Part shown: piece by piece, positions 1 through 22,171 of the stretch
Numbering within the stretch: position 1 is the stretch's first letter
Layout: every line of letters starts with the position of its first letter
Source of the DNA: a virus
DNA length: 43,310 bases
IMG/VR virus record: IMGVR_UViG_3300045120_000521
Coordinates: 1 to 43,310 of that record
Strand: one strand, 5' to 3'
Program-made: the position numbers and the translations under genes
Notes under the pieces: generated by a model
What the model was told of the DNA's origin: nothing
What the model saw: only the letters and a program-made list of their open reading frames with translations
Databases searched by the model: none

Positions 1-865
1 TCGGGTGCTCCGTCGTCAGCGTGTACTTGTCCGGCCAGGCGTGCGGCTTGTACGGCTCGGAGAAGAACAGCTGCTTGCCCATGAACGCCGCCATCATGCC
101 GTTGGGCAGGGCGATCAGGCCGCTCAGTCCGTCCGGCGGCGTGTCGAAGGGGATCGACGGGCATGGTTCGGCGGTGGCGTCGACCGGCACGGTGTCGTGA
201 AAGATGGTGGTCGCCGCGTCGATCTCGGCGATGAAATAGTAGTAGGAGCCGGCGGAGCCCGTCTGCAGGCGGTAGATGCGCTTCTTGGTGATGCCGCGGG
301 CGGGCGACGCCGGCGGTGCCAGCAGCCCCGACAGGTCGACGTATTGACCCGGCTTCCAGTCGACGTTGTCGGACACCGGCGACGGCGCGCTCTCCTCCTT
401 GATGCCGTTGAGGTCGGTGACGTAGGTGTAGATGTAGAGCCTGGACTGGATGTCCGTGCCGGTGGCGGTGCCGCCCAGCGCCACGGCGCACTTGGTTGTC
501 GGCGCCACCACGGCGAGGTCGTACTCGGTGCCGTCGGCGAGCCGCATCTTCGGTTTGCCGCCCGCCGGGTTAAGGTTGAGGTAGCCGTCGGTGTAGTACA
601 GCCGGTCGGTCGCCACGGGGGCGGGAGCCACCCAGATATTGGGGCTGTCCCAGCCGATCCAGTTATTGCTGAAATAGGTGATCGACTTCCACGTCGCCGA
701 CACGCCAACGTTATCCACGATCGGCGCGTCGCGCAGCGGCGTCAGGCCGCCGTCGTCGAGCCGCGTGTCGATCGCGGACTGCGCCGCCGTGTCGGGCAGC
801 AGCCGTGGCAGGATGCGTGGCTGCTCGCCGGAAAAGGCGGTGATGCTGATCGTCGGCGCCGGCAT
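1..865 (-). CDS. Virion protein, tail/nozzle-like (3' end outside window)
   Basis: The frame is open from ATG 865 to the window edge (288 codons seen, no stop), so the C-terminus is missing. The ATG overlaps the stop of the tail-fibre gene (TGATG). The N-terminus (MPAPTISITAFSG) is followed by beta-rich sequence with GxxYDLAVV, RLYIYTYVTDLNG and, near the break, LPNGMMAAFMGKQLFFSEPY then KPHAWP. The LPNGMMAxF...FSEPYxPHAWP pattern is familiar from large tail proteins of short-tailed phages. By position next to fibre genes I infer a tail nozzle or DNA-stabilisation protein of the T7 gp12 / P22 gp10 class. Family membership is not proven; any tail-tip structural protein would fit. Confidence 0.6.
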   Translation of the reverse strand, partial: MPAPTISITAFSGEQPRILPRLLPDTAAQSAIDTRLDDGGLTPLRDAPIVDNVGVSATWKSITYFSNNWIGWDSPNIWVAPAPVATDRLYYTDGYLNLNPAGGKPKMRLADGTEYDLAVVAPTTKCAVALGGTATGTDIQSRLYIYTYVTDLNGIKEESAPSPVSDNVDWKPGQYVDLSGLLAPPASPARGITKKRIYRLQTGSAGSYYYFIAEIDAATTIFHDTVPVDATAEPCPSIPFDTPPDGLSGLIALPNGMMAAFMGKQLFFSEPYKPHAWPDKYTLTTEHP

Positions 866-14427: not shown

Positions 14428-16776
14428 CTAGGGGCCCGGTGGCGGTGCGCCGATACCGAGCTGTTGATCCGCACCGGGCTGCGGACCGCCGGGCTGCATG
14501 CCGGGCGGTGGTTGCTGTTGGGCAGCGGCCTGCTGCTGTTGCGCGGCGGCGGCTGCCGCCTGCATCTGGGCCAGCGCCGTCGCATCCTTGTCGGTCTGCG
14601 AGACGAAGCCGGACTCCGCCAAGATGTAATCCGCGACCTGCGCGGCGGCCGGCACCGATATCGCCACCTGCGCGGCGTCCAGCGCCTTCTGTTGCGCATC
14701 GACGTTGTGGCCGGGGATCTTGGCCATGGTCTCCTGCGCCAAGGCTGTAGCTTGATCCGCCTTGGCCATCGCTGCCTTGGCGTCGCCGATCGCCTTCTCC
14801 AGCTGCGCCCGCAGCAGCGCCTGCTGCATTGCCTGCTGCTGCGCCATCTGCTGCATGCGCTGCTGCTCCTCCGGCGTCGGCGTCTCGCTGTTCGGGTCGA
14901 ACTGGCCGGTGACCGAGCGGATGCGCTTGACGATCTCCTCGCGGTTGGGGAGGTCCATGTTCTCGACGGCGAGGTCGAGCAGCAGGATGGCGACTTCCGG
15001 CGGCAGCCGGCTCATCGCCTCCATCAGCTCGTCGGCGGCGGCCTGCCTAATGGTGGCGTGCCACGCCGCCTCGCTGATGACGAAGTCGGCCTTGTTGCGG
15101 GTGATGTCGTTGTCGGGCAGGCCGTCGTTGACGGTGACGTAGTCCGACTTGCCGCGCTGGTTGGTGATGCGGAACTGCTTCTCCTGATCCATGAACTGCT
15201 CGACGTTGGCGAGCAGTTTCTCGCCGTGCACCTGGCAGGCGAACAGGAGGTTGTCGAACAGCTTGGCGGTGGCCAGCGAGCCCTGGTCCTGCCGGCGCTG
15301 GATGGCGACGCCACTGGTCGCGTTGGTCTTGCGGCCGAGCAGCTCGTCGGTGACGCCACTGGCCTGCTGGATCATGTTGATGTCGCGGCTCATCAGCTCG
15401 AGGTGCCATTGAGCTAAGTCACGGTCCGCGTTGATGTCGATTTCCTTGCCCGGCATCTTGCGAATGATCGCATCCGGCCGGCTGACCTCCTCCTGGAACT
15501 CCTCGAAGCTCATGTCGTCGGGCAGCGCGTCGTAGTCCATGATGATCTTGGAGGTCGACAGGATGTGCAGCGCCTTCGACGCACGCTTGTTGACGTCGAC
15601 CTGGATGTCCTTGAGCCGGCGGATGACGCCGTAGGGCGCGCCGTCGCGGCCGCGGCGGTAGGCGAAGATCGGGGTCAGCGGAAAGCGGTTGTGCCGGTAG
15701 GGGCTCTCCGACCACCACAGCATGCCCGCCTCGGTGAACAGCCCGATGTGGACGCGCATGATGGTCTTCTCGACCAGCTGGGCGTCGCCGTTCTTGAGGT
15801 CGAGCTTGTGGCCGCCGGAGAAGGCGTCGAACATCTCGCCGTCGAAGGTGCCGCCCTTCATCTTGCCGGCGGTCACCGGCCGCTTGTACCAGCCCTCGAT
15901 GATGCGGACGCGCTGGCGCTGGAAGCCTTCGATGGCGCGCGACCCGGTGGTCGAGCCGTAGGCCTGCTCGAGCGCCATCTCCTGGCTGTCCATCGGCGCG
16001 TCGCCGTAGAGGTCGCGCTGGATGAAGTCGTCGCCGCGCTCGGCCGACGAGCGGAGCACGTCCTGACGCTTGGGGAACATGGCGATGGCGACGTCGAGGT
16101 CGACCCACTTCGAGCGGAAGATGTAGCGCCCGTCATTGACGTCGAGCTCGGTCGCCGCGGTGTCGTGCAGCACGTTGCGCCAGCTCTCGTAGCGGCTGTA
16201 GAGCGGCTCGTCCTCGCTGTCGCCGTCCAAACCATCTTCGATCCAGCCGATGCCGACCTTGACGGCGTCCTCGAAGGCCCGGGAGATGTGGAATGGTTCG
16301 CGGTTGACGTCCGAGAGGTACTTGAGCAGCGCCGTCTTCTTCTCGGCCTGCTTGGCCTGCTCCTTCTTGCGCGGCAGCACCTTGAAGTCGGTGCGGGCGC
16401 GTTTCTCGGAGCCTGAGATCCAGTCGATCGAGGTCGAGATGACGTTATAAACGAGAGGAACTTGCCCGCGATCGCGGAGCTGCTGGGCGTCGTCGGGATT
16501 CCACTGGATGTTGTCGTAGAAATCCTCGTCCTCGGCCATCTCGGCGCGGTTGTCGCCCTGTCTATCAAGTTCATCCGCGTAGCAGGCGAGCATCTGGTGA
16601 TGCAGGTCCTGCATGTCGGGGCTGTCGAGGTTGGTGGTCTTTGACGAGCCGCGGTCCGGCGTCTTCATCGAGGTGGTCGGCGGCAGGTGCGCCGGCATCG
16701 GGTCGCCGTAGGTCGACTTGTCCTTGACGCGGCGGACCGAACCGTCGTCGGCGCCGAGATCGAACATGTCAGCCAT
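14428..16776 (-). CDS. Portal protein (P22-type)
   Basis: A 782-aa portal, the length of P22-type portals (gp1). The N-terminal ~200 residues contain ADELDRQGDNRAEMAEDEDF, YDNIQWNPDD, GQVPLVYNVISTSIDWISGS and EKRARTDFKVLPRKK, all typical of this family, followed by FEDAVKVGIGWIE. Middle landmarks are PLTPIFAYRRGRDGAPYGVI, RRLKDIQVDVNKRASKALHI and the ASGVTDELLGRKTNATSGVA hinge, then AIQRRQDQG. The C-terminus (~620-782) is a long Gln/Ala-rich helical barrel and a Pro/Gly tail. It forms the dodecameric DNA channel at one capsid vertex. The ATG overlaps the preceding stop (TAATG). Confidence 0.9.
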   Translation of the reverse strand: MADMFDLGADDGSVRRVKDKSTYGDPMPAHLPPTTSMKTPDRGSSKTTNLDSPDMQDLHHQMLACYADELDRQGDNRAEMAEDEDFYDNIQWNPDDAQQLRDRGQVPLVYNVISTSIDWISGSEKRARTDFKVLPRKKEQAKQAEKKTALLKYLSDVNREPFHISRAFEDAVKVGIGWIEDGLDGDSEDEPLYSRYESWRNVLHDTAATELDVNDGRYIFRSKWVDLDVAIAMFPKRQDVLRSSAERGDDFIQRDLYGDAPMDSQEMALEQAYGSTTGSRAIEGFQRQRVRIIEGWYKRPVTAGKMKGGTFDGEMFDAFSGGHKLDLKNGDAQLVEKTIMRVHIGLFTEAGMLWWSESPYRHNRFPLTPIFAYRRGRDGAPYGVIRRLKDIQVDVNKRASKALHILSTSKIIMDYDALPDDMSFEEFQEEVSRPDAIIRKMPGKEIDINADRDLAQWHLELMSRDINMIQQASGVTDELLGRKTNATSGVAIQRRQDQGSLATAKLFDNLLFACQVHGEKLLANVEQFMDQEKQFRITNQRGKSDYVTVNDGLPDNDITRNKADFVISEAAWHATIRQAAADELMEAMSRLPPEVAILLLDLAVENMDLPNREEIVKRIRSVTGQFDPNSETPTPEEQQRMQQMAQQQAMQQALLRAQLEKAIGDAKAAMAKADQATALAQETMAKIPGHNVDAQQKALDAAQVAISVPAAAQVADYILAESGFVSQTDKDATALAQMQAAAAAAQQQQAAAQQQPPPGMQPGGPQPGADQQLGIGAPPPGP

Positions 16777-18050: not shown

Positions 18051-18307
18051 GGCCGCTCCCCCAGCTTCGGCAGGGTGATGCGCGATTTCAGCTCGGCGCG
18101 GCTGGGCTGGAAGCCGCCTCCGCGATTGTTGGCCGGCAGGCAGGGGAACCGCGCGGTGGGCTTTCTGCCGCAGCCCGGCAGGCCAAGCGCCTGGCGCTCG
18201 ACTAGGCTGGCGGCGGTGTGCTGCTTCGTCTGCCTGTCTTTCTCCTGCATGCGGGCGTTGCGCCAGTACAGCTTGGCAACCCGCTCGGGCCACTGTCTCG
18301 ATGTCAT
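18047..18307 (-). CDS. Small basic protein downstream of large terminase
   Basis: An 86-aa, Lys/Arg-rich protein (WPERVAKLYWRNARMQEKDR). Its ATG overlaps the terminase stop (ATGA) and its stop overlaps the next start (ATGA), which makes a real, translationally coupled gene likely. It has CGRKPTARFPCLPANNRGGG in the second half. No family recognised; a DNA-packaging accessory role is only suggested by position and charge. Confidence 0.6.
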   Translation of the reverse strand: MTSRQWPERVAKLYWRNARMQEKDRQTKQHTAASLVERQALGLPGCGRKPTARFPCLPANNRGGGFQPSRAELKSRITLPKLGERP

Positions 18308-19863
18308 GCGGCTAACCCCGACTTGTTCTTGCGCGGCGTCCAGCGGCTGGCGCCTGTTCCGAACCGAAGATGGCGGATCTGGGCGTGCTGGCGCAGGGCA
18401 TCGGCAGCGTGCTGGTGGCCGTTCTTGGCGATGACCGGCATCCAGGTGCCCATCTTGTCGTTCCAGGTCTTGGAAAACCCTTCGAGATGGCGCAGGCCCT
18501 GCTCGCAGTTCTCGGCGTCGATGTAATAGGTTCCGAAGGCTTCCCTGAGCTGGTCGACGGCATCCGGCACGTGCGGCGTGCGCTGCACCGTTTCGAGGTT
18601 GCGCATGCCGAGGTCGCGCAGCAGGTCGACGTAGGTCTTCAAATGCTCGGCGCCGGGGCGGCGGTGGTTGGCGTCGTGCGGCAGGTAATGCCAGCCGTAG
18701 ACATAGCCGCGCTCGTTGAGCTGGCGGACGTAGTAGGACGGCGGCTCCGAGGTGCCCTCGATGTAATCGATGAAGTGCTGGGCGGGGCCGAAATCCTGGT
18801 GCAGCCAGATGGCGGTATCATCGTTGAGACCCAGGTCCCAGAAGGTGTTGACCGGGCGGCCGGGGTCGTAGGGCACGCGGGTGATGCGGCGCTCGACACG
18901 CGCCTTGGCCAGCTGCTGCGACAGCCAGAGGCCATCGGTCGACACCGTGAACGCCTCTTCCAGCGTCGACGGATACTGGGAAAACATCTTGAGCTGGTCG
19001 TCGCCGAACAGATTGCGGCGGGTCAGCACGTACCAGGCGCGCTTCCTCTCGGAGATGTCGCGGCGGATCTCGCCCTCGAGCCGGTAGAAATAGGCGAGGT
19101 CGTTCTGGCTGATCATCACCGAGGACGGATCGGCCTCATATTCCGGGGCGTCCCACCACGAGGCGAAATGCAGCTTCCACTCGAGCGGGCCCGGCGTATG
19201 GCCGGCTTCCTCGAGCTGACGCGCGTTGCGAACCATGTCGGCGAAGATGCCGTAGGGCGTCTCCATGGTCGATTCGATGCAGGTGACGCCGTACTGGTCG
19301 ACGGAAGGCAGCGAGCCGGTCTGGATTTCCGTCGCCCGGTCCGGGTAGCGCTGGCAGATCTTGCCGTATTCTGAGACGTGCAGATATTGCAGGGTTGAAC
19401 CACGCGTCGAGGTGGCGACAACCAGGGTCGAGCCGGTGTTGAAGGCGAGCTCGGTCTTGGTCAGGTACTTCAGGCCGACCATCTCCTTGACGACGTTGGG
19501 CAAATGGTCCCAGGCGAAGCGCACCTTCTGCTCGAAGATCACCCGTGCCGTGTCCTCGTCCTGGGCGATGATTGCCGCGGAGGTATTTTCCTGGAACAGG
19601 CAGGCGTCGAACATCAAGAGCTGGATGACGGTGGAGAAGCCGCGCTGGCGCGCCTTGGGAATGAGGTTGCGGTAGTGCAAAGCGCGCATGAAGCGGCGCT
19701 GTTCAGGCCACGGCCTGAAGGTGACGATGGCGCCGGATTTGTTGGTGATCTTGTAGAGGTTGGACAGCCGCCACTCGACGTCGGAAATGGCTTTCTGCTG
19801 TTCGCCCGGCGTCAGCTTGTCAAACGGTTTGAGCCAGTAAGACGGACGCGGCTCGGCGTTCAC
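18304..19863 (-). CDS. terL: Terminase large subunit
   Basis: A 519-aa ATPase/nuclease that packages DNA through the portal. GTG 19863 is chosen because it overlaps the previous stop (GTGA); the open frame continues to 20202 but that part is another gene's shadow. ATPase domain: FRPWPEQRRFMRAL, a non-classical Walker A KARQRGFST (70-78, the RQxGxST form common in large terminases), and Walker B YLHVSE (160-165) with catalytic Glu165. Nuclease domain: VNTFWDLGLNDDTAIW near 345, with the first Asp pair, YGWHYLPHDANHR, and a late Asp in HAADALR. AEEAFTVS-like 'TLEEAFTVSTDGLW' marks the linker, as in gp17-like enzymes. Confidence 0.93.
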   Translation of the reverse strand: MNAEPRPSYWLKPFDKLTPGEQQKAISDVEWRLSNLYKITNKSGAIVTFRPWPEQRRFMRALHYRNLIPKARQRGFSTVIQLLMFDACLFQENTSAAIIAQDEDTARVIFEQKVRFAWDHLPNVVKEMVGLKYLTKTELAFNTGSTLVVATSTRGSTLQYLHVSEYGKICQRYPDRATEIQTGSLPSVDQYGVTCIESTMETPYGIFADMVRNARQLEEAGHTPGPLEWKLHFASWWDAPEYEADPSSVMISQNDLAYFYRLEGEIRRDISERKRAWYVLTRRNLFGDDQLKMFSQYPSTLEEAFTVSTDGLWLSQQLAKARVERRITRVPYDPGRPVNTFWDLGLNDDTAIWLHQDFGPAQHFIDYIEGTSEPPSYYVRQLNERGYVYGWHYLPHDANHRRPGAEHLKTYVDLLRDLGMRNLETVQRTPHVPDAVDQLREAFGTYYIDAENCEQGLRHLEGFSKTWNDKMGTWMPVIAKNGHQHAADALRQHAQIRHLRFGTGASRWTPRKNKSGLAA

Positions 19864-20054
19864 AGCTGCCGCTCCGCGTGCTCGATGAACATCGCGACCT
19901 CGCGCTCGTCGACCTCGCCGTGGCGGCAGAACAAGACGCCAATGGGGCCGCGGCCGGGCCAGGTCAGCAGCAGCTCCTCGCCGTTCCAGCTGGTCGAGGT
20001 GGTGACGCCGTAGCCGGCGCGGGTGAGCTGCTCCTTGGCCTGGTTCTCGGTCAC
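19860..20054 (-). CDS. Small protein, paralogue of 20556-20762
   Basis: A 64-aa protein from GTG 20054 (GTGA overlap on both sides). It resembles the 68-aa product of 20556-20762: AxxxLxxAG at the N-terminus, W-x-G-[ED]-EL-x-L-x-W-x-G in the middle, G-x-LF-x-R-x-G and an F-x-E/D helix at the end. Two copies within 700 bp indicate a local duplication. Function unknown; its compact alpha/beta pattern has no catalytic motif. Confidence 0.65.
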   Translation of the reverse strand: MTENQAKEQLTRAGYGVTTSTSWNGEELLLTWPGRGPIGVLFCRHGEVDEREVAMFIEHAERQL

Positions 20055-20278
20055 CCCGGGTCCTCCGGGTGGCGATGCCTGAACAGGCAGACCTCCAGCA
20101 TGCGATTGGCCACCAGCTCGTGGTAGCGCCGCACGATCTCCGTTTCGGCTTCCATCCTGGCGGCGTATTCCGGGACGAACAGGCCGCGGCGAAGGCAGAC
20201 AATCTCGGCGTCGAGTTCCTCGTCGTCGCGATGCAGGTCGTAGGTGTCGTCGTGCAGCCGGGTCCAGTACGCGTTCAT
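20051..20278 (-). CDS. Small hypothetical protein
   Basis: About 75 residues, starting at ATG 20278 (TGATG) or the adjacent ATG 20281. Strongly charged helical sequence (DLHRDDEELDAEIVCLRRGL, RMEAETEIVRRYHELVANRM) with a His/Arg-rich end. Overlaps both neighbours by stop/start sharing. No family recognised. Confidence 0.6.
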   Translation of the reverse strand: MNAYWTRLHDDTYDLHRDDEELDAEIVCLRRGLFVPEYAARMEAETEIVRRYHELVANRMLEVCLFRHRHPEDPG

Positions 20279-20559
20279 CATCGCTTGCCGTCGACCTGGC
20301 TTGTCGTTGCAGCCTGCAGCTTGCCGAGTTCGCTGTGCTCACTGGCCTCCCAGCGTTTGCGCTGCTCGGGACCGCCGCCGTCCGGCCAGTCGTCGATGCC
20401 GCGGTGGTCTTTCAGCAGTTCGTGTGCGTCGAACAGCTTGAGCAGCACCTCGAGGCTGGCGCGGGGCAAGGTAACTTCAACCTTACCGGCGTGGCGGCAG
20501 TTGGCGACGTGGGCGCGGATGACCGCGACGTGCGCGGCGTCGACGTCGAGCGGCGTCAT
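20278..20559 (-). CDS. Small hypothetical protein
   Basis: A 93-aa protein (HVAVIRAHVANCRHAGKVEV, TLPRASLEVLLKLFDAHELL) with a charged C-terminus. ATG 20559 overlaps the preceding stop (ATGA). Mixed beta/helix character; no known motif. It lies between the two paralogous small genes, so it may belong to the same functional group. Confidence 0.6.
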   Translation of the reverse strand: MTPLDVDAAHVAVIRAHVANCRHAGKVEVTLPRASLEVLLKLFDAHELLKDHRGIDDWPDGGGPEQRKRWEASEHSELGKLQAATTSQVDGKR

Positions 20560-20762
20560 CGGATCACCCGGTGGCTCACGTTGTCGAGGAACAGCCCGAG
20601 GTCCTGCGAACGGATCATGCCGGCGCGGATGAACAGCGTGCCGACGACGTTGCCGGCCCAGCTGAGGATCAGCTCGTCGCCGGGCCAGCTGACGCCGTGC
20701 TGCAGCTCGGTGGTGAACCCAGCTTCGTGCAAGAGATCGCGGGCGTGCTGCACCGACGTCAA
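20556..20762 (-). CDS. Small protein, paralogue of 19860-20054
   Basis: A 68-aa frame from TTG 20762, which has GAAGG 7-8 nt upstream; GTG 20753 is an alternative start with poorer spacing. Sequence VSWPGDELILSWAGNVVGTL then FIRAG parallels the product of 19860-20054. Function unknown. Confidence 0.6.
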   Translation of the reverse strand: MTSVQHARDLLHEAGFTTELQHGVSWPGDELILSWAGNVVGTLFIRAGMIRSQDLGLFLDNVSHRVIR

Positions 20763-20780: not shown

Positions 20781-21011
20781 TCAGGCGCCGTCGCGCGGCT
20801 TCTTGGTGGCGGCCTTGACCGCCCACATGGCGGCGTCCTCTGCATGGGTCTGCGCCAGTGCCTTCAGGCGCTTGACCTCGCCGTCGGCCTTGTCCTCGAT
20901 CTCGTCGATCAGATCGATCAATTCCGCGGCGGCGGTCTTGAGTTTGTCGACGACGGGCGATTTGGACGGATTGAAATCAATGCCGACGCGGTATTCGCCG
21001 AGGCTTGTCAT
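20781..21011 (-). CDS. Acb2/Tad1-like hairpin protein (candidate anti-CBASS/anti-Thoeris sponge)
   Basis: A 76-aa protein built as a helical hairpin. The pattern EYRVGIDFNPSKSPVVDKLK, TAAAELIDLIDEIED..., LKALAQTHAEDAAMWAVKAA then TKKP matches what I know of the Acb2/Tad1 hairpin family: a short N-terminal loop with FNPS/HPP, a helix with AxxLIDLI, and a second helix with LAxTxxEDAxMWAVKAxTK. Acb2 oligomers bind cyclic di- and trinucleotides and Tad1 binds cyclic-ADPR-type signals, blocking CBASS and Thoeris defence. Only the fold family can be claimed here; ligand and activity are unknown. It is the first gene after the gap downstream of the small terminase, preceded by operator-like dyads. 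Confidence 0.7.
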   Translation of the reverse strand: MTSLGEYRVGIDFNPSKSPVVDKLKTAAAELIDLIDEIEDKADGEVKRLKALAQTHAEDAAMWAVKAATKKPRDGA

Positions 21012-21356
21012 GCTACCACTCCCGTTGTTGTCAGATCGGTTCCTTTAGCACTGGTTACGGGTGTCTCAAAGATGGGAGTCCCATCGGATAGGGGTCCCAT
21101 TTCAGATAGGACTATTCTCCTATCGGGAAAATCGGCTCAAAAATCAGGAGTTTCTGACTCGATGAACATTGGAATCTTGATCGGGGCCCACCGAACGAAG
21201 TGAGGGGGAGCCCCCAGGGGTCCGACTCTTCGCGAGCGATAGCGAGCTCCGCTTGCGCGCGAGCGAAGCGAGCGCGCGCGCCGGCCGCGGCCTGTGGTCG
21301 CCGCTCCTCTGCCCTCATCGTCGATCTAATTACAACCTATGCGTTCATGCATAGGC
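21012..21356. other. 345-bp gap with operator-like dyads and hairpins
   Basis: No convincing gene. Contents from left to right: an interrupted palindrome GATGGGA-G-TCCCATC (21071-21085), a GTCCCAT half-site (21094-21100), an inverted repeat GATAGGA-6 nt-TCCTATC (21105-21124), a GC-rich REP-like stretch of GAGCGAAGCGAGCG type (about 21225-21285), and a 7-bp stem hairpin CCTATGC-6 nt-GCATAGG (21336-21355) next to the small-terminase stop. The dyads lie 60-115 bp upstream of the Acb2-like start. No good sigma70 promoter is visible, though the layout suits a regulated promoter for the terminase/capsid operon. Confidence 0.55.
21336..21355 (-). terminator. Hairpin after small-terminase gene
   Basis: CCTATGC / GCATAGG stem with a 6-nt loop, starting 1 nt beyond the stop codon of the small terminase on the minus strand and followed by TTGTAATT. 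Stem is short and the U-tract poor, so termination would be partial. Confidence 0.35.
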
Positions 21357-22055
21357 CTAGGACGAGGGCTCTTCACCATCCTCTGGTTGCATGCTGGGGT
21401 CGATGTCGACCGTTTCGCCCGGATCCAAGGGGCGATGGTCGATCGCCCGACGCTCGCTTGCCGGACGAATGACGTTGCCAGCTATCTGCCGGAAGAGCTC
21501 CTGCAACGGCGTGTCGAGCCCGACTGTCACCTTGTCCGAGAAAGCGCCAACCTTGATATGGCGGCCGAGGAGCTCGAGCCGTCGCGCGCGATCTACCAGG
21601 ACGATGTCAGTCTGCACGCCTATCTCTTCGCCACGGTCGGCGCCGCGGCCGTATAGGCGTGTCGTGCGAATGGTGCTGACCAATCCACGGCGCCAAACCA
21701 CGGGCCAATCCCGGACCGGTTTAAGGTTACCAGTTGCGTCGTAAAGGTCGGCCGAATCGGCGTTCACTTCCTCCCATAAGCGCCGCAAAACAAAGTCAGC
21801 ATCGATCTCGACTCGGGCCAATCTTTTGGCCTGCAATTCGGCGATACGGGCCTGAACCCTTGAGTCTCTTAAGGCGATTGAACCCTGAACGTCGGCACGT
21901 TTAGGCGAGTAGCCTGCCCTTATCGCCGCTTGGGTTGTCGATAGGTCTTTGACGTACTCTTCGGCGAACCTGGCACGCCATGGCGGCATGGGGCGCGCCG
22001 CGGAGGGGGCGCCAGCGCGCGAGGAACGCTTGGGGGCTGTAGGATGGCGGCTCAT
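21357..22055 (-). CDS. terS: Terminase small subunit (Terminase_2 type)
   Basis: A 232-aa protein. Residues ~27-75 carry the terminase small-subunit DNA-recognition pattern: RFAEEYVKDLSTTQAAIRAG, YSPKRADVQGSIALRDSRVQ, ARIAELQ, i.e. a helix-turn-helix (TTQAAIRAGYS) followed by a coiled segment. The middle (DLYDATGNLKPVRDWP) is a common extension in this family; the acidic tail may contact the large subunit. It selects phage DNA for packaging. The gene stands apart from terL by ~1.5 kb of small genes and directly follows the terminator at 22105-22143. Only GAGG is seen close before ATG 22055. Confidence 0.9.
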   Translation of the reverse strand: MSRHPTAPKRSSRAGAPSAARPMPPWRARFAEEYVKDLSTTQAAIRAGYSPKRADVQGSIALRDSRVQARIAELQAKRLARVEIDADFVLRRLWEEVNADSADLYDATGNLKPVRDWPVVWRRGLVSTIRTTRLYGRGADRGEEIGVQTDIVLVDRARRLELLGRHIKVGAFSDKVTVGLDTPLQELFRQIAGNVIRPASERRAIDHRPLDPGETVDIDPSMQPEDGEEPSS

Positions 22056-22104: not shown

Positions 22105-22143
22105 AAAAAAGCGATAAGCCCGGAACCGTTTGGTTCCGGGCTT
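22105..22143 (-). terminator. Rho-independent terminator
   Basis: Perfect 12-bp stem (22116-22127 with 22132-22143, AAGCCCGGAACC arm) with a 4-nt loop. On the minus strand it is followed by ATCGC and TTTTTT. It closes the early-type operon that ends with the 222-aa gene and separates it from the small-terminase gene. Confidence 0.9.
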
Positions 22144-22171
22144 ACCAGGATAGTCGGAAGGGCGGGAAAGG

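Follow-up and report, generated by a model that had tools for sequence, protein, structure and literature searches.

A short gene on the minus strand of the window (the 43,310-base virus record analyzed here at its full length) probably encodes an anti-CBASS sponge of the Acb2 type that binds cyclic dinucleotides, cyclic trinucleotides, or both, and that belongs to a subtype marked by an FNPS loop. This function, which is predicted from sequence, is the best reading of the gene (20781-21011, read from 21011 to 20781) because its 76-aa product matches the Acb2 family in Pfam, scores well in profile comparisons with Acb2, and conserves the pocket Tyr, Lys, and basic residue. As assessed by a PF24729 match, an AlphaFold model, hhalign comparisons, and a residue map, the hairpin protein is a well-supported addition to the already known Acb2 family, not a new system.

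The product translated from the minus strand is MTSLGEYRVGIDFNPSKSPVVDKLKTAAAELIDLIDEIEDKADGEVKRLKALAQTHAEDAAMWAVKAATKKPRDGA (76 aa). It contains both motifs singled out in a preliminary description of this DNA, i.e. FNPS (residues 13-16) and LAQTHAEDAAMWAVKAATK (residues 52-70). Inspection of the sequence reveals a Shine-Dalgarno-like GGGAG (21019-21023, minus strand) 7 nt ahead of the ATG, and the codon composition of the gene agrees with that of the other genes of the phage. A near-identical phage, represented by one contig (L002/L319), has ∼98% identity to the window across the gene for the large terminase subunit (TerL) and beyond. Between the two phages, the hairpin gene shows nine synonymous and two nonsynonymous changes, corresponding to a dN/dS of ∼0.06; across all close pairs, dN/dS is 0.03-0.5. 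Relatives of the hairpin protein are encoded by at least 393 IMG/VR loci (in the seeded search alone), and 20 columns are invariant among 41 aligned relatives, including R8, F13, N14, P15, K25, E45, R48, A53, T55, E58, M62, K66, and T69. The number of loci, the invariant columns, and the dN/dS of ∼0.06 put the ORF far above chance. It is a real gene on which purifying selection acts.

Membership in the Acb2/Tad1 hairpin family, which the preliminary description had proposed, is borne out by a Pfam profile search, in which the protein matches PF24729 at 9.8e-15 (54.9 bits versus a cut-off of 27). Two control proteins, T4 Vs.4 and the Acb2 of phage PaP2, score 70.1 and 66.1 bits, respectively, the PaP2 ORF used being 100% identical to crystallized Acb2 (PDB 8h2j). 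Searches of the hairpin protein against NCBIfam and PADLOC gave no match. As a single-sequence query of the PDB, it returned chance matches only, and when the PDB was searched with the A1 profile, the E values for Vs.4, Tad1, and "Acb2 homolog 43" were no better than 0.16-0.9 (∼0.9 for the Tad1 chains), so that a comparison of family against family was needed. We therefore built family alignments from fetched relatives of Vs.4, PaP2 Acb2, and the hairpin protein of Sinorhizobium phage Aussie, and compared these as profiles using hhalign. Overall, the controls score ∼9-10 (reversed profiles) and 15-22 (best of 60 column shuffles). The 41 relatives of the window protein score 48.6 against the Acb2 family, in a match spanning 62 columns, whereas the reversed profile scores 8.7 and the highest-scoring of 60 shuffles 21.5. 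The score against the Vs.4 family is 34.4 (shuffles reach 16.7), and that against the Aussie family is 78.2, making it the closest of the three families compared. Because these scores are far above those of reversed and shuffled controls, homology to genuine Acb2 rests on more than a Pfam label. In a separate match, positions 20784-21011 of the window align with the C-terminal end (212-286) of phrog_717, a 289-position profile of unknown function, which suggests that larger proteins with a hairpin domain exist. One locus, L016:6001-6429, encodes a 143-aa hairpin protein whose C terminus is extended by ∼70 residues, a possible fusion.

The AlphaFold2 model of the protein (pLDDT 95.4) has helices at residues 4-9, 19-36, and 44-69, and no strand. 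The modeled monomer consists of a short N-terminal helix and two long antiparallel helices, shorter than those of Acb2, a layout that agrees with the one described for Acb2 (PMC10419184). Foldseek of the model against the PDB found nothing significant. VIA-align placed Acb2 at Z 5.1 (61 aligned residues, rmsd 3.7) amid unrelated helical hairpins, the highest of which reached Z 6.7. Fold comparison is non-discriminating for this protein, since a model of Vs.4 used as a positive control reached Acb2 at Z 8.9 next to unrelated coiled coils. In a fold search of viral models, the top matches already carry the label "Acb2/Tad1 hairpin domain-containing".

In T4 Vs.4, Y8 and F82 stack on the bases of cGAMP, the ligand is bonded by Y8, H11, K23, and R79, and the hexamer interfaces contain L29, A66, A73, and A77 (Jenson et al., PMC10097602). 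We found that Y7, K25, and K66 of the hairpin protein align with Y11, K26, and R85 of Acb2 and with Y8, K23, and R79 of Vs.4. The equivalence of Tyr7 requires a three-residue gap, i.e. an insertion at the start of the FNPS loop. This arrangement is seen when the profile is aligned to the PaP2 family or to the Aussie family, and it led us to drop a gapless hand alignment that had put Gly10 at the pocket tyrosine. Against the Vs.4 family, the profile alignment is weaker and begins at Phe13 instead. Taking the FNPS, Aussie, PaP2, and Vs.4 families in that order, 95, 99, 100, and 100% of the proteins have the pocket Tyr, 100, 100, 99, and 100% the pocket Lys (K25 here), and 100, 100, 100, and 94% a third basic residue (Lys or Arg, K66 here). 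K66, Arg48, and Thr55 are each 100% conserved in the FNPS clade; the Acb2-family columns R85, R67, and T74 stand at 100, 91, and 85%. In addition, A53, A60 (mostly Ala/Gly), and A64 (Ala/Gly) align with the T4 interface residues A66, A73, and A77.

Two further positions set the groups apart. All 41 relatives have Thr69 at the site of Vs.4 Phe82; the Aussie proteins also have Thr there and members of the PaP2 family have Ala, so that Phe82 is a feature of the T4 group and not of the whole family. Seven residues ahead of the Thr of helix 3, an Arg (R48 in the hairpin protein, R67 in PaP2) is conserved in three families, i.e. FNPS, Aussie, and PaP2, whereas the T4 group does not conserve it. R67 of Acb2, with which R48 aligns, is presumably a cyclic-trinucleotide contact. 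At the position equivalent to T55, the T68M change in T4 Acb2 lowers binding (PMC12657230). We infer that the ligand pocket involves Y7, K25, and K66, plus R48 and T55. Among relatives of the FNPS type in isolate phages (L082, L083, L089, and L090, from EcP1, Flavobacterium phages including FCV-1, and Providencia PS3), Lys, Gln, or Arg replaces the pocket Tyr; the helix-3 Arg and Thr are kept in all except PS3.

Working as Acb2 and Vs.4 do, the hairpin protein would assemble into a hexamer. Each inter-protomer pocket would then hold a cyclic dinucleotide against Tyr7, with its phosphates bound by Lys25 and Lys66, and the conserved Arg48 may act at cyclic-trinucleotide sites at the ends of the hexamer. 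Sequestration of CBASS signals would keep the cell-killing effectors off, which would allow the phage to complete its replication, and co-expression with the terminase and capsid genes would have the sponge in place as late phage products appear. The least secure part of this proposal is which ligands are bound, given that the dinucleotide pocket has a wall altered by the FNPS loop and Thr69 and that the isolate-phage relatives with an FNPS loop lack the Tyr and mostly have the Arg. An alternative, which we consider unlikely, is that fold and descent are the same and the ligand has shifted, e.g. to cyclic trinucleotides only or to a non-CBASS nucleotide, in which case the anti-CBASS 2 label would be wrong in its strict cGAMP sense. 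The three-residue insertion by the pocket Tyr, the shorter hairpin, and the Thr at the Phe82 site all fit such a shift, as do the isolate-phage relatives, which show that the Tyr site and the Arg seven residues before the Thr can vary separately. However, the clade to which the window protein belongs conserves Tyr, Lys25, and Lys66 at 95-100%, and crystallized Acb2 is without Phe82 as well. In a related and equally tentative proposal, the FNPS subtype would be a functionally distinct branch of Acb2 with another ligand range (e.g. mainly cyclic trinucleotides) brought about by the altered loop and Thr69, and its late expression alongside the capsid genes would coincide with the time at which CBASS is triggered by the capsid.

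The structural genes of the window are podovirus-like, with a portal of the P22 type, and the nearest annotated DNA, at 72-75% identity over short stretches, comes from phages of Sinorhizobium, Agrobacterium, Ochrobactrum, and Microcystis. On the minus strand, a terminator-like hairpin of 16 pairs and a T tract (22112-22147) divides the preceding genes from that for the small terminase subunit TerS (21357-22055; PF03592 9e-26, phrog_51 3.4e-31). There follow a 345-nt non-coding gap (21012-21356), the hairpin gene, four small ORFs, TerL (18304-19863; phrog_2 1e-24), and, further on, the P22-type portal protein (14428-16776; PF16510 2.9e-180). The hairpin gene is therefore associated with the terminase/capsid operon, as the preliminary description had it; it is not at the head of this late operon, where TerS comes first and the hairpin gene second. 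Three of the small ORFs (20556-20762, 20278-20559, and 20051-20281, minus strand) are accessory ORFs lying between the hairpin gene and TerL, and the fourth (19860-20054, minus strand, 64 aa) is just ahead of TerL. The first and the last of the four, both of them without a family match, are paralogous by blastp (E 1.2e-9, 29.5% identity over 61 aa) and are separated by two unrelated ORFs. In L319, an ORF that looks from its sequence like an HNH homing endonuclease (1174-1560) replaces the one just after the hairpin gene, and the 76-aa ORF at 20051-20281 is absent. Small genes of the TerS-TerL interval are gained and lost among close relatives.

The position between TerS and TerL would also suit an accessory protein for packaging or head assembly with no part in counter-defense, and family members occur in structural operons elsewhere, before TerS in Pasteurella phage Pmp11 and between the head-to-tail adaptor and stopper genes in Sinorhizobium phage Aussie. 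We nevertheless hold this explanation to be very improbable, given the conserved pocket residues and the distribution of the gene. Among the five TerL relatives with at least 80% identity, the interval from TerS to TerL includes the hairpin gene in three (L319, L321, and L323) and lacks it in two (L320 and L322), whereas relatives below 55% identity have TerS and TerL nearly adjacent and no hairpin gene. Across 49 hairpin loci the neighbors are diverse, with terminases and portals but also exonucleases, ribonucleotide reductase, and dCTP deaminase, i.e. genes of replication and nucleotide metabolism. Such patchiness among close relatives, together with the mixed neighbors, marks an accessory gene, as a role in counter-defense would predict. 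Because other hairpin proteins are also found in structural operons, the late position of the present one is not peculiar, although T4 vs.4 differs in adjoining regB. SMODS nucleotidyltransferases scored above the cut-off in only 5 of 16 genomes with relatives, a raw count taken without a matched background, from which we draw no conclusion.

The gap ahead of the hairpin gene had been described as operator-like. Two near-perfect palindromes, GATGGGACTCCCATC (21071-21085) and GATAGGAGAATAGTCCTATC (21105-21124), are indeed present 60-115 nt upstream of the gene, and their sequence is identical in the nearest relative, L319, but the pattern scans were not clearly above chance. An imperfect repeat of GATGGGACTCCCATC, spaced 16 nt off, lies in the same gap. 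A promoter scan found none. It is possible that the palindromes are an operator or another regulatory element. In L321, a similar sequence, GATGGGTCCCATC, is found downstream of the TerS gene.

The predicted sponge shares with Acb2 of the Pseudomonas phages PaP2 and PaMx33 (PDB 8h2j and 8h2x) the PF24729 match, the pocket Tyr, Lys, and basic residue, and the helix-3 Arg and Thr. On the other hand, identity is ∼20%, the FNPS loop is three residues longer, the inter-helix loop and helices are shorter, and Lys and Thr are found at the sites of Arg85 and Ala88. T4 Vs.4 (PDB 7uq2) belongs to the same Pfam family, and equivalents of its Y8, K23, R79 (as Lys), T68, A66, A73, A77, and M75-W76 are retained; unlike Vs.4, the hairpin protein has Thr for Phe82, does not keep His11, has the Arg seven residues before the Thr, and is encoded in a late operon. 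With the Aussie-type proteins (YRVLS...RExSLAKTKIEEAVMWAVK) it has EYRV, the Lys, R-x6-T, and EEA.MWAVK..T in common, whereas these lack the FNPS insertion and have a shorter loop between the helices. The Aussie type (L127-L206; YRVLS...RExSLAKTKIEEAVMWAVK.IT) is a second, very conserved hairpin family of putative function, with at least 399 IMG/VR loci.

Tad1 (PDB 7uav, 8smd, and 8kbf) has a C-terminal helical hairpin in common with the window protein and is in the same Pfam family, whose name covers it. In Tad1, loops of an N-terminal β-sheet domain and the hairpin together make the pocket for gcADPR and CDN (PMC12043709). The additional suggestion of the preliminary description, that the protein might be a Tad1-like anti-Thoeris factor sequestering gcADPR, is the least probable of all, because an all-helical protein of 76 residues has no room for that β-sheet domain and hence lacks the gcADPR pocket, and its profile similarity is strongly to Acb2, even though Tad1 chains appear in both the weak PDB profile list (E ∼0.9) and the fold list (Z 4.6). 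Acb4, Tad2, and Acb1 are alike in removing the signals used by CBASS or Thoeris, be they cyclic nucleotides or gcADPR, and are not members of the hairpin family. Acb1 is a nuclease and not a sponge. Acb4 is structurally dissimilar to Acb2, Tad1, and Tad2 according to its authors (PMC11722364).

The FNPS proteins add a well-supported branch with a candidate sponge function to a phage counter-defense family. Their natural pocket variation (Tyr kept or lost; Phe, Ala, or Thr at one wall; Arg kept) offers a ready set for finding the residues that govern ligand choice. T4 Acb2 sets off the Panoptes defense (PMC12657218). If the hairpin protein sponges cyclic dinucleotides, it could likewise trigger Panoptes, which would fit the loss of the gene in some relatives. 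Since Acb2 triggers Panoptes, the gain and loss of the hairpin gene within one genomic interval is a place to look for such a trade-off. Relatives of the protein occur mostly in uncultured phages, and also in genomes of Alphaproteobacteria (Paracoccus, Camelimonas, and Bradyrhizobium) and Bacteroidota. One uncultured Rhodobacteraceae MAG contains seven loci with a hairpin relative on seven contigs (L302-L308), which point to either a group of related prophages or a repeated element.
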